NCBI GenBank assembly: GCA_030549335.1
Contig: CM060197.1
Coordinates: 46,837,654 to 46,901,653 of the forward strand
Length of the DNA stretch: 64,000 bases
From: Pontederia crassipes
Lineage: Eukaryota; Streptophyta; Magnoliopsida; Commelinales; Pontederiaceae
Reading direction: 5' to 3'
Every line of letters begins with the position of its first letter. Positions within the stretch are counted from its first letter, which is position 1. The notes below the pieces were generated by a model. The model was given only the letters and a program-made list of their open reading frames with translations. It was not told the origin of the DNA and made no database searches. A program made the translations under genes and the position numbers. Positions 2,062-64,000 of the stretch are shown here, piece by piece.

Positions 2062-4184
2062 AGTATGAATAAACTTTGACCAAAGTGATGACTCTGAGAA
2101 TCGAACTTAGGACTACTAGCATCAGCGATTCTTTGATTAATCCTTATTCTTATAGATAGTCGATCACTAAGTGTTTGATAAGAACCACAATATGTTTCGA
2201 CAATAAAACATATGTCGAATCTGAACAAGATTATTTCTTTTAAAACAAGGATGCTCACTATAATATCCCAGATTTTCTAATTGGACTTAATAGTTAATCT
2301 AGGTCTAATACTCTTAAGTATCCTTATATAAGAAACCAAAATCCCTTGTTAACCTATTTTCCTCCACCAAAAATTCTCTTGACAGCTAGAACTTGAAGAG
2401 GGAGAACATGAGGAATAAGGAGGAGGAAGAAAAAGAGGAAGAAAGAGGAGGAGATCAAATGAGGATTGAAAGGTATGTAAAGGGGATCCAAATCTCTCTT
2501 TCCACTCTGAATGTTGTTTTGTTTGGATTGATGGATTCAAGAACACCCTATTCTTGATAGGAATTTTGATTGAGAGTTGTATAAATAAGGATTGCATGAA
2601 TAAAGGTTTTGCATAATCTCTTAAATTCGTGACTATTTTATAATAATTACTTGAATATGTTTTATTTATCCAAAAATTATAAATAATATATGGATGGAAA
2701 GCATGATGCATGAGGCATGCCTTGGACACTACAAGAAAATTGTCAATTTGCGACGGAACTTTTTCGATGGGCAAGAATCCTTCGGATTTTTTGACGGCAT
2801 TTCGATGGATTTTAAAATACCGAGGGCCATAATATCCTTCGCTACTATATACAGTAAATACCCATCGACACGTTACCGATGGGAATATCCTTTGACATTA
2901 CCGAGGGATTTAAATCCGTCGGTAATTCCGAAGGCTAGACCCATCGGTAAATATATTTATAATAATATATATATGTGGTATAATATAAGTATATGTTTAA
3001 TATTTTATGATTTGAATTACTGACGGATTTAACCTTCGAAATTATCGAAGGATATTGATCCGTCAGTAATTGCGAAGACCACAACTGTCGGTAATTAATT
3101 TTAATAATAATATATATGTAATATATTTTTAAAGACTCATATTGTGATTAATATTAAAAATAATCATTATGTTAACATTTTAGTGCACATTAATATTTAT
3201 CAATTTAATATTATAAATTAATTTATAATCTATATTCCATATCTATAAATATATTGAAAGGAAAATGAGTAAATAGATAAAAAAATAAAGATGTTTTTAT
3301 CAGAAATTAAAAAATAATGATAATTTATTTAATCATAATATTTATTAATGCTTTAAGAAAGGAATATATAAAAAGATAGACATGTATTATAAAAAGTGAT
3401 AATGAATAATATTATTTTAATTACCGACGAATATTTTCCTTCAAATTTATCGACGGATATTAAATCCTTCGTTAATTCTGAAGGAGCTTTCCTTCGGTAA
3501 TTAAAATAATAATTTATTATTAATATTTATAATATAATACATTTCTCTTCCATTTACTTAAAATATTCATAAATATAATATGATATTATTCTTGTTTATA
3601 ATCATATATATTAATTCACATAATATTATTAATGTTAATAAGATGATTTTATATATAACTATTGATAATAAATAATATTATTTTAATTATCAACGGATAT
3701 TTTCTTTCGAAATTATCGATGGATGTTAAAGCCTTCGGTAATTTTGAAAGAGCTTTCCTTCAATAATTAAAGATATCAATAATATACTATTATTTTATTT
3801 ATCGAAGGATAATGCCAGATGTCAGTAATTTTGAAGGAAATGCCCGTCGATAATTAAAATAGTATCATTTATTATAAATTTCCACCGTAATTATAAATTT
3901 ATATATTTTAAGTATTGTAATTAATTTTATTTAAAATTCTATTACTTCTATAAATTTTATGATTATTAATAGTTTTAGTCATATATGTAACAATATTTTA
4001 AACATTAATAATAGTATATGTATTGATATTAATTAATTATGTCCTTCTATATAATTAAAACTATTAGTAATATTATGTTATATTATAAATATTTTATAAA
4101 AATGGAATAAAGAGATGTGTTCTATTATAAACATTAATAATATACTATTTTATTTATCGAAGGATAGTGCTTTCGAAATGATCG

Positions 4185-4300
4185 AAGGATTTAGTATCCG
4201 TCGGTAATTTCGAAGGACATTACCCGTCGGTAATTATGAAGGATATTACCCGTCGGTAATTGCGAAGGACATTACCCGTCGATAATTACTGATGGAAAAT
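4185..4300. repeat. Short tandem repeat in the CACTA-1 subterminal zone
   Basis: Four near copies of a roughly 30-base unit, GAAGGACATTACCCGTCGG plus TAATT and one or two variable bases. Each unit contains a partly self-complementary CCGTCGG / TCGAAGG pair. Arrays of this kind in CACTA subterminal zones are known transposase-binding regions; that role is inferred here. Confidence 0.7.
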
Positions 4301-4639
4301 GCCTTCAAAATTACCGAAGGATTTGCACCCATCGGTAATTTCGAAAGCATTATCCTTCGGTAATTAAAATAGTATAATTTTTTTTATCAATATTCATATA
4401 TATAATATTATTATTAAACATTAATAATATTTTTAATATAATATTATGATTATTAATATTTTCAGTCGTATATGTGAATATATATAATATTATAATGTTT
4501 AGTAATATTTTTTTTATATAAATATTGATAAAAATATTATTATTTTATTTACCGATGGATATTTCTTTCAGAATTACCGACAGATACTATATCCTTCAAT
4601 AACTTCAAAGGAAATACCCGTCGCAAATTCTAATATTTT

Positions 4640-5300
4640 CCCGCCCAATTTTCTTCCCTCCGCCTTCTCGCTCCCGCGCCCTCCACTCTCCCTATATTCC
4701 CCCTCCTCCTCTATCTCTCCTCTTCTCTATTCTCTCCTCCTCTCCCCCTCTCTATCTCTCCCATGGCGGCGGTGGCAACTCCGGCGATGACTCCCGGCCG
4801 TCGGCCGCCCTCACCGACTCCCTCTCTATCTCTCCCTTCTCGATCTCGACTCTGGCCGCAGGCGTCGGATCCAGTCGTAGGCGCCAGATCCTGTCGCCTG
4901 TCATCAGATCGGGTCGCCTGCGAGCCGGTCGGGGCCGCAGACACCACATTCGGCTCGCAGGCGTCCGAACCTGACGCCTACTGCCGGATCCGACTCGCAG
5001 GTGGCCGGACCCGACGCCTGCGGTCGGACCTGGCGCCTACGACCGGATCCGGTGCCTGCGGCCGGACTCAGTCGCCTATGAGCCAAATTTGGCCTCCCGC
5101 GTCCTTGGTCGGATTTAGTCGCTGGCGACTGGATCAGGGATGCAGGCAGCCAAACCGGCTCGCAGGCGACGGATCGTGCTCGCTGGCAACGGATCCGGCC
5201 GCCTGCCCGCGTCCTTGGCCTCCTCCCCATCCTCTCTATCTCGATTCTGGCCGCTGCTTCAGATTGGCCGCCAGCGCCAATCCGGTAGCAGGCGGCCTAT
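4640..5300. repeat. C/T-rich tract and GC-rich minisatellite core of CACTA-1
   Basis: A strong C/T-rich run (4640-4780) leads into ATGGCGGCGGTGG and then into a GC-rich stretch built from degenerate repeats of GGATCC/GGATCTGG plus GCCTGCGGCC-like sequence. Several reading frames are open across it, but the translations are low-complexity, differ between frames and match no family, so it is treated as repeat and not gene. Related cores occur at 51417-51790, 54200-54600 and 63360-63840. Confidence 0.7.
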
Positions 5301-6304
5301 TTTTTATATTTTTAAAAACTTTTTGACGGACGTGTTCGTCGCACTCCGCTAGTGCGTGCGACGGGAACCGCCCATCGAAGCCTTCGATGGGAGATGGCCC
5401 ATTGAAAGCTTCGACGAGTGTCGCCCGCCAAAGATTTCGGCGGGTCGAACCTGTCAAAGCCTTCGGCAGGTCCTCACACGCCGAATGTTTCGACGGGTCA
5501 AACTCGTCGATGATTTCGACGGAAGTTCTCCCATCGGAACTTTCGACAGGTTGTCTATCAAAGTCGGTCGAAACTTGGGAAGGACTCTTACCTCCGACGC
5601 GATAGTCAGAGTAGGAACTTCTGACGACAAAATCCGTCCGAAGATCGGAAGGACAACCTTCCCTTCGAAACTTCTTCAAAATCCGTTCGAAGATCGGAAG
5701 GACAACTTTCCCTTCGAAACGTCTATCAAAATTGTGAAGGCGATTTTTTCGTCGGAAGTGTTCGTCGAAACTTTCAAAGGGATATTTGAGGACCTTCGAT
5801 AATATTTTGCAACGATAAATTTTCCAACTAACACATATCCATCGAAAAATCCATCGCAAAGACATATTTGTGACAGATTTTGAAGGTTTTGCGACGGATA
5901 AATCCGCCGCAAAATCGCAATATTGTTGTAGTGGGATTAGTCCCACATGCATAAGTCACAGAAGACATGTTAGGTATATGTGGGATCATGGCCTTGTTCA
6001 AGAGTGACACGTTTTGAGAAAACCATGCGGGTCGAGGTCCGGAGCGGATAATATCACACGCTAGTGAAGAATGTTACATATGGTATCAGAGCCACTCCAC
6101 GTGAGCATCTGTGCATGATAAGGTGTGATCACTCAATGAGGACGTTGAGTCTCCTAAGGGGGGAAGGATGCATGAGGCATACCTTGGATTACTCACACAT
6201 GCATAAGTTACGGAAGATATGTTGGGTATATATGGGAACATGTCTTTCACTAGGTGTGACGTATTTTGAGAAAATCGTGCGGGCCGAGGCTCAGAGCGGA
6301 CAAT

Positions 6305-24402: not shown

Positions 24403-24497
24403 GTCATGGTAGGATAGTCAATCCATACCAAGAATGACATCGCAGTCCATCATAGGGATGACTACCAGATCTGCAAAAAAGTTCTCGCCCTGTATCT

Positions 24498-25771: not shown

Positions 25772-26137
25772 TGGTACGGCCTAAACAGACGGTATCATCA
25801 TAGGTGGAGCTGTTGGTACCCGTGATGGTGGGGGCTGTACTAGTGGGGACAGAACAGTCGGCTCCACAGCACGAGCCTAACTCATCTGGACCTCATTCTG
25901 GTCCGTTCCCTCTTGTAGTGGATTTTCGATCCCACCGCTATTTTGAGGTCGCCTCCGACCCCAAGCTTAGTAATCGGTGCGTGACGTGGAGGCATCTACA
26001 TCATCATCTTAGAAAACATCATACATTTTAGGAGATAAGATAAACTTATTTGACTTCAGGTGACGCGGTGACTGCTCGTGGCGCTTGCACATGGACTTGA
26101 CATCATACTTTAGGACATGAGAATGACCTAACTTTAG

Positions 26138-45400: not shown

Positions 45401-48400
45401 ATCAACCTAGAAATCATTAAAATCTGATGGAAAGCATTGAGCATAACAACTATGTTCAAAAAAATTAAACTAACTGTTATTTGATTATCAAAAATAAAAA
45501 ATTGTTCATATACTAAAACTCTTGCAACTAAAACAGAAAGGTAAAATTAAAACTAATAATTCAGAGTGCTAAGACATATAGATAAAACATGAAAAATATA
45601 AAATATTATCCCAACAATATGTAGAACAAAGAGTACTCTTCAGAAAAAAAATAGTTGCACAATCCTCGCATCTCTTTGTCCTTCAGAAGTTCTCTTTCGT
45701 TCTTGGCTTCAAAACTTCGGTTTCAGGCCCTAGCATCCTCTCTCTCCAAGTGGCAGAAATGCTCTACTTATAGGGGTTCAGGTTTCTGAAGAAACAAGAA
45801 CTTTTTCTATGTCAAAATAAGGAAAATACAGAGTTGATTTAGTTATGAAATTTTTGCTTGTCAAACTTCGAAATTTGATACATAATATATTTTTAAATCA
45901 TCTTGGGATCATATAGTACTTGTGTACTTGAAATCCCTTCAAACATTTATCCAAAACTCAGATTTGTCCCTCGTCACAGGTTGTTACGAGAATTTAATGA
46001 CTTATACATTGTCCGAACGGGCTTAGAAATGAGTTTTCACGGCCCTTATAGTATCCAATTTGCATAAAAAGTGAGAATTTCATGCCCCGTGATGAGTTGG
46101 TCACGGTCATGCCATAGGCAGATTTTTTGCATGAAAAAATATATTTTCAAGTGGCTTCACAACCCTATTTTACGGTCCGTGAAAAGCCATTCACGGCCCA
46201 CCCGTGACAGTCAATTTTTAGCCTTTAGCTTCACTATATTCCACTTTCTAGCTATCTTTTAACTCCAATTTGAGCGTGATTTTTTTTATGGCATCGTAAT
46301 TTAATTTTGTTGCTTCCTACATAATAAGATATAATATTTGGATACCATTTTCATTTTTCTAAAATTAATGTAAATAAGCTCACAAAATTATGCATGCTAT
46401 TAGAAAATAATTCAAAATAAGATTAAATGCATGTCTAAATATATGTTATATTTTGCATGCATCAGTTTGTCTTTTCTACGCAGTAACCCGTTGGTAGTAG
46501 TCCATAGAGAAATCAGTTTGTCTAAATATATATTGTTTGTCTTTGCTGCCCAAAACGGTCATCCGAAACTATTATGGTCATCCATTTTAAAAAAGTCAAT
46601 TTCTCAAACTTCTACGGTCATTGTATTAGCTTTTCGGTCATCCCTCTCATATGTTGTCTTTTGAACTTGACGCCCAGAACGATCGACCAAAACTATTTCG
46701 ATCATCTGATTTAAAAATATCAATTTCTCAGACTTCTGCGATCATTGTAGAAGCTTTTCGGTTGTTCGTCTCATATGCTGTCTTTTGAACTTGATGCCCA
46801 GAATGATCGATCGAAACTCCTTCGATCATCTGATTTAAAAAGATTGATTTCTTGGATTTAGCGGTCATTGTAGAGGTTTTTCGATCGTCCATCTGATATC
46901 ATGTCTTTTGAACTCGACATCCAGATCGGTCGTCCGAAATACTTTCAGTCGTCTAGTTTAAAATTTTCAAATTCTCAAATATCTACGATCGTTCATTTAT
47001 ATGTATAGCGGACGCTCGATAATATTTCCGTCATCCGTTTTAATTGTAAAAATCTTACGATGATCTTTTTTTTTTTGAAAAATATTTAACATGTTCAAAC
47101 TAACACTTCAACCAACATTAGTACATCATCTTTCTAATTTGCTATCATCAAAATACTTAGAATATGGTCTTTGGACCAACAAATTATTGAAGGTGATTCC
47201 TATCTCACCCACCTAATTATGTTGTTCATCGAGAGGTTTCCTATCGATCAAGCACCCTACCTGTAGTCTCCTGTGGGTGCGTCTCCTGATGGCGAGCAAA
47301 GGAGGTCACAAGGGAGAGAGGGGAAGAGAAAATATGAATAGGAAAATCAGAAATTAGTACCCCTTTTTTTCCTCATTTTGTGGCTAGATTGTGGGGATTA
47401 TAAGAAAGTTATTGGGTTTTAAATCTCAACTTTTCTGGGGTTTGTTTGAGGGGATTTGATCTCTTTCCAAGTTGTTACTCAAGTGCTCATCATGTGTCAC
47501 AATTAGTTTTGATTTTTTTTTCGTGTGCGGTTGTTTTTGGAGGATGTTACATTATAACTTTCTTAAAAGGAATTTGTCCTTGAACTTTGCATTAAGTAAA
47601 GGCTTACGAAAATATGTGAAAACTCTTGGCAAATATTTTACTCGACCTCCTACGCTACTTCATTTCCATAGTGAGTAGGCTAGTCTGACTATAGGCATAT
47701 CATTTGTCTTCCGTCATTGAACCTTGTGTCCTGGACCAAAGTGAGGTATGCGGCTAGATTAGGCTCCTCGATTTAAACAACATTGGCATCATTATGTCGG
47801 AACTTGTTTAGCATGAAAACGTGAAACACATTGTGCACTGGCCCATAAGGGCGTTGTGCCTACTTGCATACCGCCTCGCCGACTAAATCCAAAATATCAA
47901 ATGGTCCAACATAATGAGGATTGATCTTCCTTGGCTTGCTGAAACTCATGACCCCTTTCATAGGGGAACCCTTTAGCAGGACTTGATCATTTTCCCTCGT
48001 CTACCTTCATCTGCGTAGCTCTTCTATCTAGCTTGTGTGAAATTCAACCCATTTTTTTCCTCAACTCGACCTTCTCAGAGTACTCCACGTACCTCTTCTT
48101 TACTCACGAATTTGGAGGTGTATAACAGATAATTACCTTGGCCAATAACCTCAAGGAGTGTTAGAAAGTGGGAGTACCTCACACAAAGTTGTAAACTTCA
48201 AACCCACTAGGAAGAATGTAGACTAATTAACTACCTAATTAACTAATTAACTACCTTTTCACTTTAAGTCATCATGCATTCGAGTTTTGGTGATATAGTG
48301 CGATGACAATCGTTTGGAGATATGATCACTTGAACTTCGATTTAGATCAAATGCCTTGAGGGATTGATCAAAGCACATAAATCAGTAGTAGGTAATTCTC

Positions 48401-51400
48401 AAATGAGAACTATATTGGGAATCAGTTATGCATTTTATCACTCATTAGAGGATGGACCATTCTTGGTAATCTATGCCTTTGGAAATAAAGTGGTTCATTA
48501 ATCGATGTCATTCAATATCCTTTCTATGTCTCGATACTTTGACCATGGAGGTTGCCTTTAGTTTCAACCCATTGATTTTTCATTGCTTAATCTTTTGTTA
48601 CAATATTGTATTATATGATTTCAGAGAAGATTGGTGGTTATACATTATCACGATCAGTTCTTTTCTTTTGGTAATGGGATATCTTTTGACTCCATGTATA
48701 GGGTCAATGCATAGGTATCATAGTGATGTTAGTAGAGTGAGAATCACTCCAAATCAATGTTAAGATTGAGTGGTAACTATGATGAGGAATTGATCGAGTG
48801 ATGAAACATATGGTAAACTCATAACAAACGACAAGAATTTATAAACATAACAAAGCATGTCCTTAGTGAATCATCATGAAATGTAAGTGAATGAATGAGA
48901 TGAATTCAAGTAGCAAGATGTAAAATAAAACAATCACAAACAATCATTTCTATTCTTTGCACATTATTCCATTGTCGTTTAGTACATGGAAGAGTGGTTA
49001 TATAACCCTAAAGTTGATTGGAAACCTATCCATATATAAGAAATATGCTTGGGATCATAAACGATCCACTTGATCGAGACAAAATTGAGAAAATTATTCA
49101 CCATATAGACATTTAGGCATTTTAGAGAACATCCTATACACTATAAGAAAATTGTGCATTTGTGACGGACACGAATCTTTCGCATTTTCTGACGGCATTT
49201 GCAAGAAAATAAAAAAATTTTGAAAATACCGAGGGCAAAAAGGTCCTTCGCTATTACGGATGATAAAATTTTGTCGATGATTTATCGTTGGTCTTCAGAA
49301 TTATCGATGGATGCAAAGGATAAGGCCGTTGGTAAATATATTTTTAATAAAATATATATAATATAATATAAGCATATGTTTCATATTTTATTATTAATGT
49401 TTAATATAATAAATATAATACATATTTATCTTCCTACATTTTCTTATATTCTTTTCTTGTAAAAACACATTTACAAATTTTTTATTAATATAATCTTATT
49501 CATAAAATTTGTTTTCGAAAAACTACATTTAAAAATTGTGAATGATAGGTATTCTAAGTTCTAACAATTCACTCATTCTTTTCCTAATTATATTTCCTTT
49601 TTTTCTCACACTTCTTGCATTCTATATAATTAGAATTTTTTTAATTAATTTTATTCAAAATTCTATTAAACTACTTTTTATTAATTGTGAAATGTCCATT
49701 TAATCTTATTATCTTATTACAAGAAATATTTATTAAAAAAAATAGATATGGATAAAATCATTGATAAGAAAGATATTATGTCTTTTATAATATGTCTTTT
49801 TATATATTTTTATGGGTCATTTGTGATTTATAAAAAATTAATCATTATTTAAAATTTTAGTGCACATTAATTTATGATGAATTTATATATAATTATTTAT
49901 TATCACAAATAAAAATAAATAAAATAGAATAAAACATACTATTAATATTTTAATATTATTGTTATCGTCAGGTTTGGCCTTCGGTAGTACTGATTTGAGT
50001 AGACCCATCGATAGACATTATTATAATATTATATATAGTATAATATAAAACATATGGTTAATATTTTAATATTATTGCTACTGACAAGTTTGGCCATCGG
50101 TATTATGGATGGATTTCCATCCGTCACTACTACCGAAAGGTAGACCCATTGATAACTATTATTATAATACTATAGATATAATATAATATAAAATATATGA
50201 TTAATATTTTAATATTATTGTTATCGATGGGTTTGACCTTCAGTATTACCGACGAATGTATTACCGATGGATAGACCCATCAATAACTAATATTATATAT
50301 ATGATATAATATAAAACATGGTATGAATATTTTAATAATAATAGTTATCGATGGATTTGACCTTTAGTAGTACTGATGGAAACCCATTCGTCGATACTAC
50401 CTATTATTATAATATATAACATAATATAAAACATATAATTAATCTTTTATTGTTATTACTATCTTCGTATCCATCAGAAACACTAATTTCTTATGAGTTT
50501 CACCCATGGTTCCCGCCTAATTTTTCCTCTCACTATATATCTCCCTCTCCCCATCCCATCCTAACTCTTTGTCTCCCCTCTCTCAATCTTCCCCTCTCTC
50601 TTTCACTCTATCATCTCTGACAATCTCCGACTGCAGCGACTTCCCACGTGTCATGCCTTAACGTCCACGTCCAGAACACAAAGGGGTGTTGGCCTTAATT
50701 GTCTTCTTCACGAGCGTCAAGCAGCCTCATGGTCATTCGCCCTTCATGCCGGTCGCTCTGCATACACAAGGAAAAATCCCAACGCACAATGCCTCTAAAG
50801 AACACTCGGACATGGGGGAAAGTTTGGAAATATTATTGATCAAAAGATGATTATACATGTCGGCCATAGGCCTCTATTTATACAATATTAGGGCCGGTTA
50901 CTCCTCTAACCTCCCTATTTTATCTTTGCACTATTTAAGGGATCCTCCTCGATTTCCTAATCTGTAAAACCCCCTTTAGGCTTTATCTTCTCAGCAAGAT
51001 TTAAACCAGGACATTCCTCCTTGATTCCGCTAACAACCGGCCAAAGAGATAAGTTTCCAACTTATCTCTTTCCAACCATCTACCTTCCAATCACCACCTT
51101 TCCTATTATGGATAAATCACAGGTCGTTAGGGGGGCTTACTTTCCTTCTCAAAGCTTGTCACCTTTGGAGAAGGATCGAACTCCTCTGGACTGACACCGT
51201 CGTGCCACTCCTATCGTCCGCTGCCAAAGTGGGCAAATATCAAACTGGGTATTATGCCACTTTCGGCAGGAAAGTCATCTCACGGAGCCTACGCGCTTCA
51301 CCCCATGTCATCATGTTGTCCCAGAGAGCCTCATGCTCTGCGCCATGGCCAGGAACGGGCGTGGGACGCCCATCCCACCATGCACCCTGGCATCCCTCCT

Positions 51401-54400
51401 AAGGCGATGGTTGACACATGACTCCAGCAACCACTGACGGCTCCGGCGACTCCGAATCCGGCACTATCTATCCCCCTCTCACTCTCGACTTCGGCCACCT
51501 ACAAGTCGAAATCGACCACCCCCCGGCTAGATCGGATCTGGCGCCTACGGCCCGATCCAACCTGCGGGTGGTCGAATCTGACCCCCGTGGCCCGATCTGA
51601 CGCGTACTACCAGATCTAGCCTGCAAGTGACCGAATCTAGTGCCTACGGCGAGATCCCTCTTTCCTCTTTCTTTATTGGTGTTACACCACTTGGAGGCAG
51701 TGCGGGTAGATCCGATCGCCTGGTGGCAGCCTCCTTCTCTCCTGCACTCCCTCCCATTGGATTGGGCCATCTACGACCGGATTTGGCCATGAGGTTCGAT
51801 TTTTTATATTTTAAAAATAGTTTGTGGATCGGAACATCTGATGACTTGCATAATCTAAATGTTAGAGGTATCCTTTCCCACTTGAACTTTCGATCATGAT
51901 TATATCATTAATTTTCCTATACAATTGGACATTATTATGAAAATTATAAATATATTGATAGCCAATATAAATTGATTCAATATTTATAACTTACTTCCTA
52001 ATCATCCATCTTAGATGATTATTTTGCTTCATAAGTAATTTGTAGGAGACTTATAAAATCCTCACATTTTATCTTGGCCTAAGAAATTTGTAAGATTTGC
52101 TCATATGATGTTTTGATTTTTTAATAATTGATGGAAGGAGGGATCACATATGTAGGATCACAAGGCATTGAGGGAGGGGGAGGTGGGAGGTGGGGTGAAT
52201 TGGTGTTCAAATCAAAATTGCCGATTTTATAAAAATTATCGCGGAAGCTTAAAATAAATTTGTTAAACTTTAAACTAATACAATAACAGTCAAATCACAT
52301 TAATGATAGAGTAAGAAAGAGTAGAGGATAGCAGAACAAACACACGATGCACATAAAGTCATTCATTTGATATTCATCATTCATCTCACAATTATTCGAA
52401 TGAGATGATTTTTTACTCTATGAAAAGCTAATAGAATTTTCTACAACTTTGATATTCATTATTCATCCAAAATTTAAATGATATTAATTTAAAGTTCAAT
52501 ACATAAAGTTATTCATTTCAAATTAAATTCTTTAGACCTTTACTCTTTTATACATAACTTTTCATACGAGTATTCAAATGAGATGATATTTGATTCTTCG
52601 AAAGTTAACAATATCATCTATAAATTTTATATCAATCTCTTATCCAAATCTCATGATAAGGTACTCAAATATTAAGTGCAAGTTTAGCACATAAAAATAT
52701 CATATCAACTTCAAATTGAAATTTTCGAGCTTCACTTGTTTAAACGTAACTTTTTTATGTGATTGTCCAAATGAGGTCATTCTTGATGCACTAGAAAGAT
52801 AATAGAATTATCTATAACTTTTTATATTCAACTTATATGTAAATATTATGGGAACATAGACAAATGCCAACCAAAAGTCTAGTGCATGAAGCAACTCATT
52901 CTTATTTAGATTTTTTCAGTAAATTAAATATAATACTAAATCTTTCGAAGTTTGTATCATCAAAATATAATTATATAGGATATAAAAACTTTGTTCTAAC
53001 AGAATCTTCCATAGTCATATCTAGATTAAGCGGTTTTAAGTTCATTCGAAAAGTCATCCGTTTTCAACCATTACACGCATTTCATAATCCCATTTAATTT
53101 ATTCTTTTTTATTACCGACAATACTAATCCATCTTAAAAATAATAGAAAAATAATTATTTTGGTCATAGCTATCTATGAACACTTTATATTGGGATTAGT
53201 TTGAAGTCTTATGCCAAATAAGCTTCAATAACTATTTCATCATATACTATACTTAAACTTTTGAGTAAGTACATTAGGTTATATGTACCTATACAAGTGG
53301 GTATGCGAAATCTAAAACTTTTGGTAAGCCAAAGGGTGAGTTATTTATTGGATCGTAATTTACTCTAACATTACTCGGATCAATGTGACTTCTTATTCTT
53401 TCAAAAACTAAGCTTTTATATTTGTCCATCCATATATTATATATGATTTTTTAAATAAGAATATCATATTAAATGCCTTTGAATGATAATTAACCTCCAA
53501 AAATGAAATGTCACAACAAAACACAAGTTCCCTTTTTTACTTGTCATACTATTGTTCAAAGACAAGTAAACATTCTATTCCAATTCATAATATTTTATAA
53601 TATTTCGTACAATAACTTATAGAGTTTATGTTGGTTCCTACTATATAAAATAACATCCCTGGGAATCAACCACTTAAAATCTTTATCAATTCATATATAA
53701 AGAATAACACAAAGAAATGAAAGTCTTACTTGTACTTTACAGTAGATGGTGTGGCGACAGCTGGCAATAGTACATGAACTTTCAGTATATGGTATCACTA
53801 CTAGAAAAATATTGATTACCGATGGTCCGGAGCGTCAGTAATCAGCCCGAAAATCGTCGGTAATGCAATTACCGACGGTTTTTCAATCGGAATAGATCCA
53901 TCGGAAAAACGCTCGTCGCAAATCGATTTGCGACGGTCGACAAAAATTCGTCAAAAATATCGACGGTCAGAACCATCAGAAAAGTCCCGGCAGTTCGAAC
54001 CGTCGAAAGTTTTCGACGGTTGCAACTGCCGGAAAAGGCCGGCGATTCAAACCGTCGAAAGTTTCCGACGATTGCAACCGCCGGAAAAGGCCGGTGGTTC
54101 AAACCGTTGCAACTTTTCGACGGTCGCAACTGTCGAAACTTTCAATGGCCATCGTAACCGTCGATCTTTCGGCGGTCGCAAAGAATTTTTAAATATAAAA
54201 AAATTAGCGGCCGGATCGGGCCGCGGCCAGCTTCGACTGCGGCGAAATCCGGTCGCCAGGCGGTGGATCCGGCCGTTGGGGGTCGCAGATCCGGCCGCCA
54301 GGTGGCGGATCCGGCCCTCGGCCCAGATCCGAGCCGTCGGCGCTCGATCCAGGCCGCTAGGGCCAGATCCGGCCGCTAGGCGGTCGATCCAGGCCGCTGG

Positions 54401-57400
54401 GGCCAGATCCGGCCGCTGACGCCCGATTCGGCCGCCAGCCGGCCGGATCCGAATGCCCGATAGCCGATCCGACCACTGGAGGCTGGATCCGGCCGCTAGG
54501 CAGCCGATCTGGCCGTTGGGGCCCGGATCCGAACGCCCACGGCCGGATCCGGCCGTCCAGCGACGAGATCCGGCCGACAGCGGCCTCTGGCCGGAGAGAG
54601 AAAGAGAGAGAGACGCCGGCGCGGGAGAGGGTCGCCGGCATCCGGTGCGGGAGAGGGACGACCGGTGCTCGCGGGCCGGGTGAGGGAGAGGGAGAGGGAG
54701 AGGGAGAGAGAGAGAGGAGGGGAGGGGAGGAGGAAATTTTAATATATAAGGGGAAAAGATGAAAGAGAGCGGGAAAAGGAAAAAAAAAGCGGGATAACGA
54801 AATTTTAATTACCGATGGTTACGGCCATAAAAAATGTAAATATTAATTAATTTTAAAATTACCGGGTTGTGACCGTCGAAAATATATTTAGTTATATTTA
54901 ATATTTATTTTTTTGCCGACGGTTTGACCGTCGGTAATCATTACCGATGGTCGAAATCCTCGGTAATTGCGATGGTTTAGACCGTCGCTAGTTATATTAA
55001 TAAAATACTCTTCATATGATATTATTATACATTTACCGACCTAAAAAATTGCGGCGAATTTTGCGACGGATGGATATCCATTGGAAATATCGATGTTCCT
55101 AATCGTCAAAAAATTAAATAATAATATAAAAAATACATAATTTAATTTTTTTCATTTTCGACGGTCATAACCGTCGGAAAATTTGTCGAAAAAATTAAAT
55201 AATAATATAATAAATTATATAATTTATTTTTTTATTTTCGACAGTCGTGACCGTCAAAAAATCCGTCGAAAATTGCGACGGATGAATATCCGTCAGAAAT
55301 ATCGACGTTCCTAATCGTCGAAACATTAAATAATAATATAAATCATTTTCGACGGTCATAATCGTCGAAAAATCCGTCGAAAATGAAACCGTAAAAAAAA
55401 TCCATCGCAAATTGCGACGGATTTCGAACCGTCGGAAATTACCCGTCGGAAAATCACGATTTTCTTGTAGTGTACAATGGGACATCAAAAGAGTTTTAAT
55501 ACCATAAAGATACTCCCAAATCAATCTCCACCACATGGAAAAAACCAACCTGAAGGCCCTATGAACACTATGATTTTGACAAAGACCGATCAACAATTAA
55601 GGCACATCAGCGAAAGAAAGATAAATGAATTTATAAAGATATAAATAGGAGAGCCACTAAGTGCGTATCTCCAAGAGGTCTCAAATAAAAATACTTCATA
55701 AAAATAAAAATACTTCATAACTAATACATCATGATCTAAGGAAACATAAAGAAAAATAAATAGGTCTCTAAGTTCATGTTATTGGCTATTGCTTGAGCTT
55801 CGTCGCAGCACTCAATTTCTTTCACCATCACTGACCTGGGCAAACACAAGGACGTCAATTTTCCCGTGAACTTTACAACTCAAGTGGAGAAATAATAACA
55901 ATATACAATGAATAATTTTTAGTAGGATAAATCAATAAATTCATATACATACCTTTGTTGAAAAAAGGAGCACATGTAATCAGAATAATTGATAAGCATA
56001 GAGAATGAACATATAACAATGAATTGTATGATGAACAATGGTAACAATGATATGATAAATCAGTAGCATATTCGATAATAGTGATTGGTGACAATGATTC
56101 GATAACATTAATTTTGTAACAATGATTTGGTAATGATATCACTGATTTGATAACGATAACAATGATTCGATAATAGTAACAATGCTTCTTTACTTTTATT
56201 CATAAAAAATTATTCAATGATCTTGTTCAACATGGTGATTAATAAATATGTGATTTGAAATTTCTCATCCTTTCTTTATTTAATTTTGAGGTGTACCAAG
56301 CAAACAATACAGTCATGTGTCAATGATCAATGGTTGATCAATCCATAACATTGCACTCTAATGAGAGAATAAAATGGCCTTTAATAATGAACAATAAGGA
56401 TAGTGCACTTTGCTTGGAATGACGATCCAATATTTATCTTGTTATCATCTTGATAATCTTAACATTGCTATAATCAATGTTCGGAGTCATTTTGAAGTTC
56501 ACTGATGAGCAAACAAAATAATGATATCGACATGATAAATCACGAGTCAATTGAATAATAAATCAAGAGTAGTTATATAATTAAGCATTTAGATAATGAA
56601 AAATCATATCAGGTCTCGAGTCGGACCGAAGAAAAGTTTGAATCAAATTCGAGGTTTTAGAAAATGGAAAAGGGAGTCTAGGGAAACTCGGGTTGGTCCC
56701 TCCTTGATGAACTCGGGCCGAATGTGAAACGAACTCAAGCTGGGCTTGGAAAAATGTCACGAGCGATTTCAACGCATGATGAACTCGGACTAAATCCGGA
56801 GGAGCCGGGGCCGGGTACAAAAATGTTGAGAGGTTGGGGGTTCCATCTACTAACCTGAATCGGATTTAGGGCAACTGGGACCGGATTTTGCATACGCATG
56901 CCGAATTCAGAGGAAACTCAGTCGGGTTCGTGATGAACCAGGGTCGGGTTCTTTAGATGCCTAGAGTGTCAACAATTCCCAACTTTTTATCCTAATCTAA
57001 CAATGGTGATACAAGTCGCACCCATAATATCATGCATGACCGAAACAACAAAATAATACATGAATATCAATAACAAAATATGAGATCAATAGACAAATTG
57101 AGACCATTCTCTGGAACATTAACATACACATGGTTGATTTTCCTCTTTGTTTTACTAATCAATTTGATGATGACAGTGACATGCATATCGCATGAAACAA
57201 TCCAGATCAAACATGACAGGACATAACAAAGCCTTCAATCATGAACGGGCATGATAATACATCTAAAACTAACTACTTGGACCCTTATGGCGTTAGCAGG
57301 AATGAAACAAGGATCTATTGGCTAGATCAGATCTTACACGAATTATTCAAGGTGATTTTTACTTCACCCATCTGATTATGTTATTCGTCCAGAGGTTTCC

Positions 57401-58662
57401 TATCGATCAAGCGCCCTACATGCAATCTCCTATGGGTGCGTCTTCTGATGGCGAGCAGAGGAGATCATGAGGGAGAGATGGAAAGAGAAAACATGGAAAG
57501 GAAATAAGAAAATTGTACCCCTTTTTCTTCCTCAAATAGTCCTGATTTTGGTGCCAAATTGTGACGATTATGAGGAAGTTATTGGATTTTAAATCTCAAA
57601 TTTTCTGGGGTTTGCTTTGAAGGGATTTGATCCATTGCCAGACCGTTGCACGAGTGACTTATCTTGTGTCAGTTAGTTTTTTTGTGTGGTTGTTGTTTTG
57701 GTGGTTGTTGGAATCTAAATGTCTTTTTATCAGCTCTTTGTTTGGTGACAGATAGCAACATTTATGACAGAGCATCTAGGTTACAACGTAATAGATGGAG
57801 TAGTTTCTGCAGTGACTGAGACAGGCTACAATGGCACTGCTCAACAAGTTCTGATTCAGTCTACAAGTAGCTCTCTCCTTGAGAAATTCAAGCAGCAAAC
57901 CACGTACAAGCTTGTCTACAGGATTGATGAAAACATTAGTGATGCTGATAACACCTCGGTAGTTGATATCAAGGCGTTTGCTCATGCGGTCACACTTAAT
58001 AAGGATTCCATATTTCCTACATCCTCATTCTTCATCACAGGTCAAACAAATGTTGTCTCCACGTTGAAGAAGGCCGGCCTCGAGGTGTATGCTTATGTGT
58101 TTCGAAATGAGTTTATTGGTCAACCGTGGGATTTTTTGTCAGATGCAACTGTGGAGATCAACGAATTTGTTGCAGGAGTTGGTGTGGATGGAATCATTAC
58201 TGAATTTCCAGCAACAGCTGGAGCATACAAAAGTATGTTTTAATCTTTCTGATTCTTATAATTCCTTTTTGTACCGCAGATAACGGTAGTGTTCTACTAA
58301 CTGCACATGGTAGCCGTCTGCCTCCCCTATAGAGCAGTCTCCCTTCTGTGGCTTACTTCTCGACATTTTGAGCTTTTAACAATTGAATTTGCTTGGATTA
58401 TGAAGGAAATTCCTGTAAAAGGTTAGGGAAAAATGAACCAAAATATATAGCCCCAGTTAAAGCAGGCTGGCTAGAACTATTGACTCCAGAAACAATGCCA
58501 TCATTCTTGCCTCCAAGTCCAGTTCTCCACGCCTCTGACGTCGTGGAGCCACCATTTCCTAATGTCACCCAATCACCAGTTCAATGCATCGACGTCGTGG
58601 GCCAAGACTTCTCTCGATCTCTACTATGTGTCAAAATTGGAATTGCTGAAGCAGAATTGTAG
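30372..58662 (+). CDS. Glycerophosphodiester phosphodiesterase-like protein (GDPDL, SHV3 type), nine exons
   Basis: Exons at 30372-30462, 37038-37331, 37655-37770, 37867-38368, 38560-38598, 38684-38956, 39444-39586, 57752-58232 and 58406-58662 join with GT-AG sites into one open frame of 731 codons plus stop. Residues 1-21 form a signal peptide ([18 protein letters not shown]). Residues about 33-340 are GDPD domain 1 ([29 protein letters not shown]). Residues about 350-650 are GDPD domain 2 ([32 protein letters not shown]). These proteins act at the cell surface and affect cellulose and pectin organisation and root-hair and cell-wall growth; catalytic activity of the plant GDPDL class is weak or uncertain. 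Family members have about 750 residues and a Ser/Pro-rich tail with a GPI signal; here the tail after residue 700 is short and not hydrophobic. Introns 1 (6.6 kb) and 7 (18.2 kb) are inflated by transposons, so expression may be affected, but no exon is interrupted. Confidence 0.85.
30800..30811. repeat. Left target-site duplication of the LINE
   Basis: GTATAATATGTT, repeated exactly at 36948-36959. It is followed by TTTTTTGG, a short remnant of the LINE's poly(A) tail seen from the opposite strand. Confidence 0.85.
31020..31150 (-). pseudogene. LINE RNase H domain remnant
   Basis: Minus-strand reading gives [20 protein letters not shown] then [13 protein letters not shown], the plant LINE RNase H (RVT_3) block. 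It ends in a stop soon after, near the 3' end of the element. Confidence 0.75.
32160..33415 (-). pseudogene. LINE reverse transcriptase (ORF2), split
   Basis: 33415-33131 gives the RT start ([34 protein letters not shown]). 32873-32160 gives the catalytic block with [10 protein letters not shown] (YADD near 32775-32786) and the thumb and connection region ([36 protein letters not shown]). The two halves are in different frames with a short gap between them. Confidence 0.85.
34339..34647 (-). pseudogene. LINE endonuclease remnant (ORF2 N-terminal part)
   Basis: The minus-strand translation contains [35 protein letters not shown] and [13 protein letters not shown], matching the APE-type endonuclease of plant L1 elements. 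In the last block the usual GDFN is GDFI, a likely inactivating change. Confidence 0.75.
35051..36275 (-). pseudogene. LINE ORF1 remnant with CCHC zinc knuckle
   Basis: 36275-36084 carries a DUF4283-like stretch ([19 protein letters not shown]). 35932-35051 begins with [19 protein letters not shown], a CX2CX4HX4C zinc knuckle, followed by low-complexity Ser/Pro-rich sequence. This order is standard for plant L1 ORF1. The parts lie in different frames. Confidence 0.75.
36948..36959. repeat. Right target-site duplication of the LINE
   Basis: GTATAATATGTT, identical to 30800-30811; intron sequence resumes after it. Confidence 0.85.
37038..37331 (+). CDS. GDPDL exon 2 (start of GDPD domain 1)
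   Basis: Acceptor TTTTCAG|GAAAAG and donor TCTT|GTAAGT, phase 1 on both sides. It encodes [19 protein letters not shown] through [15 protein letters not shown], the conserved N-terminal GDPDL block with [16 protein letters not shown]. Confidence 0.85.
37655..37770 (+). CDS. GDPDL exon 3
   Basis: Acceptor GGCGCAG|TAACAC; donor CAA|GTAAAC (phase 0). It encodes [13 protein letters not shown] through [19 protein letters not shown], matching the family block ending in LWLN-Q just before the H-D-x-F-Y-x-Q-H block of exon 4. Confidence 0.85.
37867..38368 (+). CDS. GDPDL exon 4 (rest of domain 1)
   Basis: Follows a 96-base intron (acceptor GGGAG|CATGAT, phase 0) and ends GCA ATA G|GTATTT. It encodes [66 protein letters not shown]-like sequence (here [12 protein letters not shown]) and [16 protein letters not shown], all strongly conserved in GDPDL proteins. 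Confidence 0.9.
38560..38598 (+). CDS. GDPDL exon 5 (39-base micro-exon)
   Basis: Acceptor TTCTTGCAG|AATG and donor CATG|GTATGT. It adds [13 protein letters not shown] and keeps the frame (phase 1 to phase 1), linking the two GDPD domains. Such a short exon is easy to miss in automatic annotation. Confidence 0.75.
38684..38956 (+). CDS. GDPDL exon 6 (start of GDPD domain 2)
   Basis: Acceptor CTTCAG|GAAGG, donor AAGC|GTAAGT. It encodes [40 protein letters not shown] and [19 protein letters not shown] is the domain 2 counterpart of the GDPD active-site start. Confidence 0.9.
39444..39586 (+). CDS. GDPDL exon 7
   Basis: The acceptor CCTGGCACAG|CC, preceded by a pyrimidine run, restores the family sequence [19 protein letters not shown], then [15 protein letters not shown] and GVMISIE. 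The upstream AG sites either break the frame or add residues absent from the family, so this site was chosen. Donor GAG|GTGAGT, phase 0. Confidence 0.85.
39645..41472 (-). repeat. gypsy-2 left LTR, first part
   Basis: Direct match to about 55507-57345. It includes degenerate repeats of AACAATGATTCGATAAC (about 40080-40270; also about 56080-56190) and a GC-richer part with ACTCGGGCC-like words (40735-40990). It is interrupted at 41472 by another LTR. Confidence 0.8.
42008..42056 (-). pseudogene. rrn23: Plastid 23S rRNA fragment (rrn23), antisense
   Basis: CAACCCGGTTTTCACGGTTT and AGGCTGCTCCCATTTTGCTC are the reverse complement of the plastid 23S sequence near its 5' region. About 50 bases; not a working gene. 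Confidence 0.85.
42165..42214. repeat. 50-base inverted repeat inside the plastid mosaic
   Basis: GTCCAGATATCATCATATAC through TTTGGAAAAAGC is the reverse complement, with a few changes, of 42569-42618 (GCTTCTTCCAAAGC through GATGTCTGGAC). The same plastid segment was joined in twice, in opposite orientation. Confidence 0.85.
42430..42642 (-). pseudogene. rpl2: Plastid rpl2 fragment
   Basis: The minus-strand frame contains [20 protein letters not shown], the well-known ribosomal protein L2 block (usual [16 protein letters not shown]). The rest of the open frame is not rpl2-like to my eye and may be a joined piece. Partial only. Confidence 0.8.
42760..42894 (+). pseudogene. ycf1: Plastid ycf1-like fragment
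   Basis: The plus-strand reading gives [19 protein letters not shown] with [10 protein letters not shown], which resembles the charged N-terminal part of plastid Ycf1. It is joined directly to a ycf2 piece. Confidence 0.6.
42895..43065 (+). pseudogene. ycf2: Plastid ycf2 fragment
   Basis: TTGCAAAAACTTTTGGATAG, TATCCTACATCTGAATTAAA and AAGAATCTCTTTCTAGTTGC match a conserved stretch of plastid ycf2 ([14 protein letters not shown]-type). Carries indels and substitutions. Confidence 0.8.
43121..43158 (-). pseudogene. Plastid trnA-UGC intron fragment, antisense
   Basis: AAGCCACCAGTTCAGGTACA and AGATACTATCATTACCGC are the reverse complement of the trnA intron start (GGTAATGATAGTATCTTGTA in plastids). 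Confidence 0.75.
43332..43396 (+). pseudogene. ndhH: Plastid ndhH 5' fragment
   Basis: The ATG frame gives [20 protein letters not shown], the N-terminus of NdhH. It then stops matching, at the join to the next piece. Confidence 0.9.
43453..43605 (+). pseudogene. accD: Plastid accD fragment
   Basis: [36 protein letters not shown] and ASFGML match the carboxyltransferase region of plastid acetyl-CoA carboxylase subunit beta. Internal fragment only. Confidence 0.9.
43650..43742 (+). pseudogene. psaA: Plastid psaA 3' fragment
   Basis: [20 protein letters not shown] and PATQHRAL match the C-terminal part of PsaA (usual [17 protein letters not shown]). Partial. Confidence 0.8.
43808..43940 (+). 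pseudogene. rrn23: Plastid 23S rRNA fragment (rrn23), sense
   Basis: GTAACTTCAGGAGAAGGGGT, GCAGTGATCAGGGC and CCGCAAAGTC follow the plastid 23S sequence with several substitutions. Too short and diverged to be a gene. Confidence 0.85.
43963..44064 (+). pseudogene. Plastid trnI-GAU 3' exon and trnI-trnA spacer
   Basis: GCGAGGTTTTTGGTTTAAGT corresponds to the 3' exon of trnI. The tract AAAGAATAGAAGAAGCATCT with TGACTCTTTCATTCATACTC is the spacer before trnA. The tRNA is incomplete. Confidence 0.8.
44120..44275 (-). pseudogene. rrn23: Plastid 23S rRNA fragment (rrn23), antisense
   Basis: GACTTCGCCTTTCGACCTGA, GGCCCTGACTCACCCTTCAT, GGAACCCTTAGGTTTTCGGG and CATTGGATTCTCACCAATGT are the reverse complement of plastid 23S. 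Confidence 0.9.
44877..46421. mobile_element. Insertion with 9-base flanks, possibly a non-TIR Mutator-like element
   Basis: attaaatgc occurs at 44868-44876 and again at 46422-46430, a 9-base duplication as made by Mutator-like elements. No clear terminal inverted repeats. It starts TAGCAAGTGCAGTAGTCGCT and holds GTGTCGAACCCACGAG; an inverted relative is at 18440-19399 and 28004-28030. Words such as TTCACGGCCC, CCCGTGACAG and GTCACGG recur at 45970-46210. No transposase seen; class uncertain. Confidence 0.5.
47182..47551 (-). repeat. gypsy-2 left LTR, second part
   Basis: Resumes with AATTATTGAAGGTGATTC and matches 57338-57712, ending GGATGTTACA at 47551. On the minus strand it is preceded by a purine-rich tract and the GGACAAATTCCTTTTAAG word usual before gypsy 3' LTRs. 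Confidence 0.8.
47690..48060 (-). pseudogene. gypsy-2 integrase C-terminal fragment (broken)
   Basis: The minus strand reads [36 protein letters not shown] and [16 protein letters not shown], the C-terminal integrase blocks of a plant chromovirus, similar to gypsy-1. This is all that remains clear of gypsy-2 pol. Confidence 0.8.
48060..49138. other. Unclassified stretch inside gypsy-2
   Basis: No LTR pair or coding family recognised. A plus-strand open frame at 48473-48763 is hydrophobic but has no family resemblance and no exon context. Confidence 0.4.
49139..51820. mobile_element. CACTA-family element (CACTA-3), right end missing
   Basis: Starts CACTATAAGAAAATTGTGCATT, with the same subterminal order as CACTA-1 (GACGG, CATTTTCTGACGGCATTTGC, TACCGAGGGC). 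Hairpin words of the ATCGATGGGTTTGACC type are spaced through 49960-50400. The C/T-rich tract is at 50500-50630 and the GC-rich core at 51417-51790. The segment ATTTTTTATATTTTAAAAATAG (about 51798), which in CACTA-1 follows the core, is present, but the second subterminal zone and terminus are absent. An LTR interrupts it at 50649-51418. No transposase. Confidence 0.75.
50649..51418 (-). mobile_element. Solo-LTR-like insertion in CACTA-3
   Basis: Breaks the usual CACTA order between the C/T-rich tract and the GC core. It starts TGTCATGCCTTAACG and ends GGTTGACACA. On the minus strand it has TATAAATAG (about 50881-50873), as expected of an LTR promoter. A clear target duplication was not found, so the ends are approximate. 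Confidence 0.5.
51821..53795. repeat. Repeat DNA including a second TGTAGGATC-family LTR piece
   Basis: From 52151, TGTAGGATCACAAGGC and GGGGTGAATTGGTG match the start of the solo LTR at 41473. From about 52380 to 52880, three degenerate units of 150-190 bases recur, each with CATTCAAATGAGATGAT-like and GAATTATCTATAACTTT-like words. No gene; the open frame at 52864-53097 falls in this repeat-like DNA. Confidence 0.5.
53796..55472. mobile_element. Complete short CACTA-family element (CACTA-2)
   Basis: Ends CACTACTAGAAAAATATTG (53796) and ACGATTTTCTTGTAGTG (to 55472); flanks tat / tac are an imperfect 3-base duplication. The left subterminal zone has repeated GACGGTTGCAACCGTCG-type palindromes, and the right zone has GACGGTCATAACCGTCG. 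The GC core at 54200-54600 has about 15 units with GATCCGGCCG, followed by a (GAGAGG)n tract. The core lies in opposite orientation to CACTA-1. 1.68 kb, no coding sequence. Confidence 0.85.
54200..54600. repeat. GATCCGGCCG minisatellite core of CACTA-2
   Basis: About 15 copies of GATCCGGCCG or close variants (GATCCAGGCCG, GATCTGGCCG, GATCCGAACG), at spacings of roughly 16-30 bases, joined by variable links such as CTAGGCG or TTGGGG. Open frames on both strands are side effects of the composition. Confidence 0.85.
55507..57712 (-). repeat. gypsy-2 right LTR (5' LTR)
   Basis: Uninterrupted counterpart of 39645-41472 plus 47182-47551. The intron sequence AATCTAAATGTC follows directly and leads into GDPDL exon 8 after about 40 bases. 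Confidence 0.8.
57752..58232 (+). CDS. GDPDL exon 8 (most of GDPD domain 2)
   Basis: Acceptor GGTGACAG|ATAGC, donor AAAA|GTATGT (phase 1). It encodes [76 protein letters not shown] and [14 protein letters not shown], all characteristic of the GDPDL second domain. It joins exon 7 in phase 0 despite the 18-kb gap. Confidence 0.9.
58406..58662 (+). CDS. GDPDL exon 9 (C-terminus)
   Basis: Acceptor TTATGAAG|GAAATT. It encodes [40 protein letters not shown] and [13 protein letters not shown], then a tail ending GIAEAEL before TAG. The tail lacks the Ser/Pro-rich stretch and final hydrophobic segment that carry the GPI anchor in most relatives. Confidence 0.8.
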
Positions 58663-58726: not shown

Positions 58727-58732
58727 AATAAA
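58727..58732 (+). promoter_or_regulatory. Candidate poly(A) signal of GDPDL
   Basis: AATAAA, 65 bases after the stop codon. Confidence 0.5.
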
Positions 58733-60900: not shown

Positions 60901-61535
60901 GTCGCACTCTCGGCTCTCGTGCTTATACCTCTACTTTTATATATATATAGATTATATAAATTTCTCTTCTTTGAAATTTATACAATTCAATAGACATACA
61001 TATGTATTACCTCTCTTCTTAAAAATTTAAATAAGTAAACTTATACATACATAGATAGATATAGTAAACTTATATATATTATATTATTAATTGTAGTCAA
61101 ATTATTATTAAGGTATATATTAATCACAAATGACCCTTTAAAATTATATAAAAGGACATATTGTAAAAGACATAATATGTTTTTTATATAAATAATATTT
61201 TTTTCTTATTTTTACTAATTATTTCTTTTTATAAGATGATAAAGATTAAATTGACATTTCGCAACTAATAAAAAGTAATTTAATAGAATTAGGGTGGACA
61301 ATTTATAACTAATTTTATAATGTTAATGTATATATAATACTAATGTTAATCAATATGTGTATATACTAACAATATTATATATCTTAATATTATCCTAAGA
61401 CATGTATTTTAATATTTTTCTTTAAGGTTTTTAAATTGTGTTGAAAACTTATCCTAATCTTATGTCATTAATTGATATAGAATTTCATATAGTTTTAACT
61501 TTATGTTCTTACTTTTCTTAATGAATTATAGTTAA
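60900..61535. other. AT-rich intergenic DNA, nothing recognised
   Basis: Low-complexity AT sequence with short TATATA runs; no open frame, RNA gene or repeat boundary found. Confidence 0.4.
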
Positions 61536-61537
61536 AT

Positions 61538-61672
61538 TATTATTATGGTGTACACGTACTCTTTTAATATATATATAATATTATTATTATGGTGTACACG
61601 TACTCTTTTATATATATAATATTATTATTATGGTGTACACGTACTCTTTTAATATATATATATATAATATTT
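61538..61672. repeat. Three-copy tandem repeat, period 41-44 bases
   Basis: GGTGTACACGTACTCTTTTA occurs at 61547, 61591 and 61632, each preceded by ATTATTATTAT and followed by a TA run of different length. GTGTACAC is itself palindromic. Confidence 0.9.
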
Positions 61673-64000
61673 CGACAGATGAAATTATCCGTGGTAATTA
61701 TGGAAGGAAAATTTATCGATGGCCACGGCCGTCTAAACTTGTGATGGTTTACTAACCGTCGAAATTTTTGACGATTACAACCGTCGAAAGTTTAGACGGA
61801 TGAACAACCGTCGAAACTTCAGATGGTTGTAATCAACGAAATAAGGTAGATCAGCGTGATCACTTTTTCATGGCACTTATCGACAGTTATGTATTCGTCG
61901 CTACTTTCGACGATTACAACCATCAGTAATATCATTATAACATTAAAATATTTACGTAGCCGACATTCAATGTATACATTATTGTAATAATTTGACGTTA
62001 AATCTACTTAGAAATATATATATTCCTCAGACACGATAGATTCATCCGTATAAATGAGTTCACTTATAATTATATATAGAGTCATCCATTCATATAGCAT
62101 ATATAAGTCAACTGTTATATGTCATATATATAAGTTCTTTCGTACATAAAAAGTTACATCACGATATGTCATTTCTTACTATTATATATACACCACGAAG
62201 TGTCATAATAGATTATCGACTATCCAGAAATTTCAAGTGGAATTAATTAAGATTTCAACGATATATCTTGATATTATAATAAATTGAGTTGATACTATAT
62301 TTTAGTAATTTCACTTTCGACGGTTCTAACAGTCGAAATATTGAATAATACATATTATACCTATTAAATTAATAAAGAGTGGGTGTTCTGACGGTCACGA
62401 CTTTCGAAACTTTTGAGGGTTAACAGATCGAATGTTAGATAATGGGTGTTCTAGAACTATAAGAAACCTAGGATCCGAAATGTTTGAATTTGAATTATTA
62501 TTTTATAGTATTGATTTAAGTTCCGACAATTCTCATCGTCCTAATGTTAGAGAATATTTTTTTTATGTAATGGAAATATACCTATTAATATAATTTTTTT
62601 TTGTATTTCGATGGCTCGAGCCCTCGAAACTTTCGAAGGTTCGATGAACTGTCCAAACTTCCAGCGGTTGCAACCGTCAGAATTTGAATTGATATTATAT
62701 ATTATTTGTTACGTTCCGACGGTTCTGACCGGCCGTACATTAATATACCTACTAATATAATTTTATTTTATTTTCTGACAGTTCAGGCCGCTGAAACTTT
62801 CGAGGGTTCCGTGAACCGTCGAAACTTTCGTGTGGAATTTGAAGTGATATTTTATATTATTTATTTACGTTTCGAATGTTCTGACTGTCGAAACATAAGA
62901 TATACTATATTATATATGTAACGGTAATATAGCTAGTAATATATATATATATATATATAATCTTTTTATGTTTCGATGGTTAGAGCTGTCAAAACTTTCG
63001 AGGGTGCGGAGAACCATCAAAACTTTTAAGGGTTCGGGGAACCGTCAAAAGTTTCAGCAATTAGAACCGTTCGAATTTGAATTGACATTTAATATTATTT
63101 ATTTATTTTTGACGGTTCGAACTGTCGAAACATAAGACATACTAATATTATATATGTAATGGTAATATATATAGAAATATATATTTTTATGTTTTGACAG
63201 TTTGGGCACTCAAAAGTTTCGATGGTTTATGTAACAGTCGTAAATTTCCACGCGGTTAAAACCATCAAAATTTGAATGATATTTTATATTATTACTTTTC
63301 GACGGTTCTGACCGTCGAAAATAGACAAACTCTGCCCTATAAGTTGCCGACCCTTCCGTTTTGTTTTCAGTTTCTTCTTCCCCTGTGACTTCCGTTCCGA
63401 TCGCCCACGTTCGCTCCGCCGGCGACTTCCGTTCCAGCCTACCGCTGCAACCACGTTGCTACGCTGGTGCCCTCCTTTGCAAAAAGGACATCACCGGCTG
63501 CCCACGTCCGCCGTTGCCTAATTTGAAGGTCCATTGCTGCAGCCTCTCCACTCTGCCGCCGCTGCAGTCGTCGTCACCAGCCCGTCGCTGCAACCGCTCC
63601 GCTATTGGCCGCAGGTACGTTTGATCACTCCCTGTTGGTCGCTCCTTCGTCCGCTCCCCTCTGCTCTTCCCCGTGGCCCTATTCGTTCCGGCCATCGATG
63701 GTCATAACCGATCGCCGCTCGCAGCCACATCTGGTCGTTTGCGGTAGATCTGACCACGGCGGCCGGATACGGCCGCTTGCTGCCACATCCGGCCGTGCCG
63801 GCCGCATTCGATCGCTGCGGCCTGATCCGGCCGGATCTGATGAATGCTTGACGAGGATGATTCATTTCCATATTCTATTCCTACTTGTAAGTGTTTAAAA
63901 TAATGACCACATATTTACAAATTAAAAAAAGGTGAATTAACTTATTTATTTTTCAAAAGCGCCTCTAGATATTAGGAATTGGTTCTCAAGTTATACTTAT
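61673..64000. mobile_element. CACTA-family element (CACTA-4), partial, runs off the window
   Basis: 62300-63320 is filled with variants of the palindrome GACGGTTCTGACCGTCGAAA and CTTTCGAGGGTTC...ACCGTC, as in CACTA-2. A C/T-rich stretch (63345-63430) and a GC-rich core with GGCCGGATACGGCCG and GATCCGGCCGGATCTG (63740-63840) follow. No CACTA terminus was found at the left, and the right end lies beyond 64000. Open frames at 63361-63898 cover the core and are not treated as genes. Confidence 0.7.

Follow-up and report, generated by a model that had tools for sequence, protein, structure and literature searches.

Within a 64 kb stretch of the genome of Pontederia crassipes (C15:46837654-46901653, hereafter the window), four mobile elements carry a GC-rich core that is partly built from short tandem units, and the question raised by this locus is what such a core represents. 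The elements are labelled E1 (2727-5933), E2 (53796-55472), E3 (from 49139) and E4 (from 61670). An earlier note on this DNA treated them as one family of non-autonomous CACTA elements with a conserved core, either important for mobility or chromatin or captured once from the 5′ end of a gene. The analysis described here indicates that the GC core is very probably the promoter and 5′ leader exon of the elements' own transposase unit, kept by deletion derivatives. An origin at the 5′ end of a gene is retained in this reading, with the linkage of the layout to TNP2 pointing to the transposase unit as that gene rather than to the host. The searches covered a genome of 1.13 Gb. In each, scoring was limited to the 40 best candidates (DNA) or the 150 best (protein, family), so that counts are lower bounds; first-look candidates numbered 1,045 for a query of E4 core plus TNPA exons, 1,141 for a query spanning the core, intron and 5′ exon, 3,921 for TNP2, and 6,851 in a search used for E2. 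Tandem arrays were identified with Tandem Repeats Finder (TRF), domains at Pfam cut-offs, and TNP2 by tblastn.

The central evidence comes from 49.97 Mb on C4, where two adjacent stretches (L071 and L070) belong to one transposase-bearing relative. The arm of L071 is 72% like the E4 arm over 1,072 bases, and its GACAAACTATCCCTATAAGTAGCCGACCCTTCCG is almost letter-identical to GACAAACTCTGCCCTATAAGTTGCCGACCCTTCCG of E4; a TATA-like CCCTATAAGT is present, and then C/T-rich DNA. The GC core of L071 holds a GATCCGGCC array, for which TRF reports a period of 19 (GATCCGGCCATCGAGGCCA, 4934-5055), and AT-rich DNA comes next. Matches to TNP2 begin at base 5 of L070, about 0.9 kb past the core (33% over 346 residues; tblastn E value 7e-42), in a frame that is broken. 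Beyond TNP2 there is an inserted foreign element and then TNPA-type exons, with Transposase_24 at L070 3902-4198 (E value 3.5e-7, passing the cut-off); the 3′ side has a GACGG arm, TTTTCTTGTAGTG, and a TAGTG end at 5294. Separate matches to the presumed 5′ exon of TNP2 show 81-88% conservation at most places and 70% at one. Transposase-bearing relatives with similar ends, as sought by the earlier note, exist for E4, the C4 copy with its broken TNP2 among them, and none was found for E1-E3 among the scored matches. As a separate observation, the TNP2 relic is interrupted (L070 985-2290) by what looks like another mobile element, which has matching ends and a C/T- and GC-rich core of its own.

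The same order is found at other places in the genome. Positions were compared for 40 of the 43 matches of the TNPA-exon query and 72 of the 128 matches of the 5′-unit query. A 5′-unit match lies within 10 kb of 14 of the 40 TNPA-exon loci, always upstream and on the same strand, at 1.9-8.2 kb; at none of the 40 was one found downstream or on the opposite strand. Ten of these 14 loci match the core, while in the other four the match is confined to the intron or 5′-exon part or to the first bases; the C4 relative is one of the 14. The remaining 26 loci have no scored 5′-unit match, which may be due to the scoring of best candidates only, or to loss. For the 5′-unit query, core and presumed TNP2 5′ exon were both matched at 13 of 40 loci, C4 included, and six TNPA-exon loci have TNPA C-terminal matches close downstream on the same strand.

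This order suggests how E4 was formed. Its in-window part (61670-64000, plus strand), which continues to about 66499 in locus L009, consists of a 5′ GACGG arm without its first ~60 bases, the TATA-like CCCTATAAGT with a C/T tract (63333-63385) near-identical to that of L071, and a GC core (63381-63838; 64% GC) that ends in GATCCGGCC units. A TNPA-type gene remnant starts at once (63839-64000 in the window) and is 85% like L070 3006-3847. As this match opens precisely where the core ends on its 3′ side (L009 2493, equal to window 63839), E4 seems to have arisen when a deletion of TNP2 fused the leader to the TNPA gene. Among the 39 other matches of the query combining E4 core and TNPA, 35 open at the same core edge (query 536-551). 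The TNPA-type gene of E4 is itself interrupted by L009 3326-4088, a segment starting CACTACAAG that replaces the Transposase_24 exon.

A second TNP2 lineage has a similar arrangement. On C7, the stretch L072, upstream of a 926-residue TNP2 frame, has a C/T tract (86% C+T), a leader of 66% GC, an AT-rich stretch and then coding sequence, which has a sub-threshold match to Transpos_assoc (E value 0.017). Stretches of the L072 type precede seven of the eight TNP2 matches with frames of at least 800 residues, in the same orientation, one of these being the query itself. The GATCCGG unit is absent from the L072 leader, and the layout is therefore older than the repeat unit. Comparison of the letters establishes the position and order of the putative leader before TNP2 in the E4-type family and in this one further lineage.

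Within the window, E1 and E4 (plus strand) and E2 (minus strand) have a common order of GACGG-rich arm, TATA-like box, C/T tract (80-90% C+T) and GC core (64-74% GC). In E1, the C/T tract (4645-4762, plus strand; 90% C+T) includes the TATA-like CCCTATATTCC at about 4690-4700, and is followed by a core of 68% GC (4760-5297) with 19-bp tandem stretches. In E2, on the minus strand, the TATA-like CTTATATATTAAAA (54750-54737) is followed by the C/T tract (the two together spanning 54636-54750), TTATATAT being present in 11 of 12 copies (all except L053), and the core (54207-54590; 74% GC) has tandem units of 19-20 bp of the GATCCGGCC type. The core of E3 (51417-51798, plus strand) has 59% GC. TRF detected periods of 19-20 bp in E1 (4860-4896, 5003-5067) and E2 (54247-54515) but reported none for the E3 and E4 cores. 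Exact GATCCGGCC units are confined, in the window, to E1, E2 and E4; looser GATCNGGCC units occur in E3 too. An AT marker, for which three forms of regular expression were run over the 64 kb, has three matches, at the core edges of E1 (5299-5318), E3 (51799-51818) and E2 (54186-54206, reversed); it is kept with small changes in 12 of 12 E2 copies, and none of the three forms matches the in-window part of E4. The single plan that had been proposed for all four elements is complete in E1 and E2 and partial in E3, which has no right end and contains a foreign repeat, and in E4, which has no marker.

Taken together, the proposed mechanism is that the TATA-like box would start transcription at the C/T-rich region, by analogy with maize En/Spm; the GC-rich core, partly of 19-20 bp units, would be the leader exon, followed by an AT-rich first intron and then by TNP2. 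The elements in the window would be deletion derivatives that have kept their ends and the leader and have lost TNP2, with E4 keeping its TNPA-type gene too. E1-E3 are assigned to this scheme by shared architecture and the repeat unit, since no copy was found to carry both a transposase and their own core, and they would derive from elements of the same leader-TNP2 build. Deletion derivatives of CACTA elements that keep the ends and lose internal genes are familiar as dSpm or I-type elements. Common descent most simply accounts for the leader being kept in short copies. By analogy with maize En/Spm only, the leader might be regulated by methylation and by a DNA-binding protein that the element encodes; 'upstream control region' and 'downstream control region' are names used for En-1/Spm.

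Several observations weigh against this reading. The TATA-like box of E1 is weak, and E3 keeps its left end and core with a promoter part that is unrecognisable. The presumed 5′ exon of TNP2 (195 bases before L070) has no match to TNP2 at 1e-3, and the pieces of E4 have no Pfam match at the cut-off, because L009 3326-4088 replaces the Transposase_24 exon. Among scored matches, a transposase match in the same orientation within 12 kb was found for none of 39 E1, 41 E2 and 39 E3 relatives; one E1 place and one E3 place do have a scored transposase match at this distance, in each case on the opposite strand. By TRF, the GC-rich leader of L072 is not a tandem array. For the GATCCGG unit of E2, the reverse complement gives the better alignment with E4 (52 vs 35) and with L071 (64 vs 45), and the E1 core likewise prefers the reverse orientation against L071; the unit is nearly palindromic, and collinear descent of the array stays putative. 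Finally, in the E2 core C-to-T changes are not enriched at CG (0.095 vs 0.14 at CHG), and it therefore bears no scar of CG methylation.

Different explanations can be proposed for the likeness of the cores. Replication slippage in GC-rich DNA could have produced the minisatellite separately in every family, the likeness then being convergence. Core similarity was measured in ten pairs against 200 dinucleotide shuffles per pair: the same-strand score was reached by none of the 200 in seven pairs, and by 9 for E1-E4, 23 for E1-L071 and 3 for E3-E4. The weak E1-E4 and E1-L071 scores are as expected from convergence, as are the differing orientation of the core between groups and the L072 GC leader that lacks the unit. 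Set against these are the scores of E4-L071, E2-L071, E2-E4, E1-E2 and E1-E3, which exceed all 200 shuffles, and a common period, and we consider separate origins unlikely. Capture of host-gene 5′ ends (promoter and GC-rich first exon), as in Pack-type CACTA elements, is less probable still. A TATA box, C/T tract and GC-rich leader do resemble the 5′ end of a plant gene, and the cores of E1-E3 align with the E4-type core only over the repeat unit; however, two lineages have transposase-bearing copies in which this layout immediately precedes TNP2. Furthermore, although the cores hold frames of more than 100 residues on both strands, these have no Pfam match, the longest differs from copy to copy among 12 E2 copies so that no single frame is kept, and core insertions and deletions (indels) are often of about 20 bp, the repeat length. 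These are chance frames in GC-rich DNA, and the warning in the earlier note that they could be misannotated as genes is borne out.

A third possibility is that a requirement in cis has preserved the core, whether in transposition, in establishing a chromatin state or in supplying small RNAs. The E2 family bears most directly on this, and 12 of its 30 loci were aligned from end to end. The core is present in all 12, in one orientation relative to the ends, as the earlier note had asked to be checked, and each of the other 18 loci, partial or complete, which were looked at separately, has a GC stretch after the arm. Such constant presence is also expected, however, if all copies descend from a single deletion, and the copies were picked by similarity to a core-bearing element, so that coreless copies would be missed. 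The core also diverges faster than the arms, with pairwise identities of 63-71% (positions 901-1260) against 82-92%, and its length varies between 258 and 483 bases, many of its indels being close to the repeat length of about 20 bp. What had been called a conserved core is thus conserved in its presence and is the fastest-diverging part of E2 in its sequence, and a need in cis seems to us unlikely, to about the same degree as convergence. Two further features of this family concern base composition: CpG is over-represented 2.7-3.0 times in the arms, and C-to-T change is less frequent at CG than at CHG, whereas heavy CG methylation would leave the opposite pattern.

The ends and subterminal repeats of the four elements place them in the CACTA (En/Spm) superfamily, as first proposed, with terminal inverted repeats, 3-bp duplications and GACGG motifs all present. 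CACTA-type terminal inverted repeats are found at both ends of E1 and E2, at the left only of E3 and at the right only of E4. GACGG or CCGTC motifs number 20 in E1, 5 in E3, 26 in E2 and 15 in E4 (6.2, 1.8, 15.5 and 6.4 per kb), compared with 38 in the 54,026 bases outside the elements (0.7 per kb), a density 2.6 to 22 times higher inside, with E3 weak. E1 (2727-5933, plus strand) is a complete non-autonomous element with the target site duplication GGA/GGA, and further end-to-end copies occur on C16. E2 (53796-55472, minus strand) is also complete and non-autonomous, with CACTA-type ends at both positions; its flanks (TAT/TAC) agree at two of three bases. Among the 12 E2 copies, the 3-bp duplication is exact in eight, and L046 would make nine if a mutation of its last base is assumed; it is inexact in E2 itself and in L041, and L048 has no right end.

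E3 (49139-51818, plus strand) is the left part of an element related to E1. Its right end was looked for and not found, and position 51820, previously given as its end, belongs to the marker and is no terminus. The upstream part of E3 has been replaced by an inserted, unrelated repeat of 775 bp (50642-51416), to which many genome matches are confined (query 1503-2278); this repeat occurs alone at many places in the genome. The left edge of E4 was placed by a copy on C12 (79% over 1,214 bases, starting about 60 bases inside the end of that copy), in which the 5′ end TACTACAAGAAAAATCACATTTTCTGACGGG precedes an E4-type arm. E4 begins at 61670 rather than 61673; its left end is lost, and its right end TTTTCTTGTAATG, with the terminal repeat TTGTAATG, is at about 66499, outside the window. 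A 41-bp tandem array of 3.1 copies (61536-61671) adjoins the truncated left edge, and the 5′ arm of the C12 copy is broken by a very GC-rich insert (GGGGCCCCGCGGGG; L073, reverse complement, 1678-2401). The description as non-autonomous fits E1-E3, whereas E4 holds remains of a TNPA gene. Rather than one family with one shared core, the elements are, on comparison of their interiors, which align only over short repeats, at least three related families.

Similar arrangements are known from other plants. Exon 1 of maize En-1 is 82% GC at 300-550 (PMC2613891). The elements described here, taken with their transposase-bearing relatives, resemble En-1/Spm in their CACTA ends, 3-bp duplication and subterminal repeats, in encoding TNP2 together with a Transposase_24 protein, and in having GC-rich DNA close to the 5′ end, ahead of the transposase coding region. 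They differ in the 19-20 bp GATCCGGCC units, in the preceding TATA box and C/T tract, and in the retention of these in short non-autonomous copies. Deletion derivatives of Tgm likewise keep both ends and lose internal genes (PMC2613891); in contrast, all E2 copies examined here have the putative promoter and GC leader as their remaining interior, and E4 has kept TNPA and lost TNP2. Soybean Tgmt*, a CACTA element described in the same paper, combines TNP2 with a further domain, PF03017, and is stated to lack the En-1-type high-GC exon 1, whereas here the second domain is PF03004 and a GC leader is present. The Chenopodium CACTA element 'Jozin' also contains tandem repeats, described in PMC8978399 as captured satellite DNA; its array is near the 3′ end, unlike the array in the 5′ leader found here. 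No earlier paper on a minisatellite leader in a CACTA element was found in a search of open-licence literature.

If the core is the promoter and leader of the transposase unit, an odd 'conserved minisatellite' becomes a specific part with a testable role, and frames on both strands of such cores in annotations are to be treated as chance frames. The many natural copies with and without transposase could also be used to examine whether En/Spm-type elements are generally controlled through their GC leader. A more speculative idea, to which we give little credence, is that C/T tract and GC leader form an exchangeable control module for the transposase genes of CACTA elements. Its layout would persist while its letters turn over between lineages, and non-autonomous copies might spread such promoter-like leaders around the genome, acting in trans on transposase-bearing copies as decoys or small-RNA sources.

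Other features in the window lie outside the four elements. A 124-bp tandem repeat of 3.5 copies with GATCGACCGAAA-type motifs is found at 46548-46977. On the minus strand, 21315-25780 and 32160-34650 contain frames that, named by eye, are like a Ty3-type polyprotein and a long interspersed nuclear element (LINE) reverse transcriptase. Frames resembling pieces of glycerophosphodiester phosphodiesterase-like genes, also named by eye and perhaps representing two copies, are located at 37028-38973 and 57749-58243.

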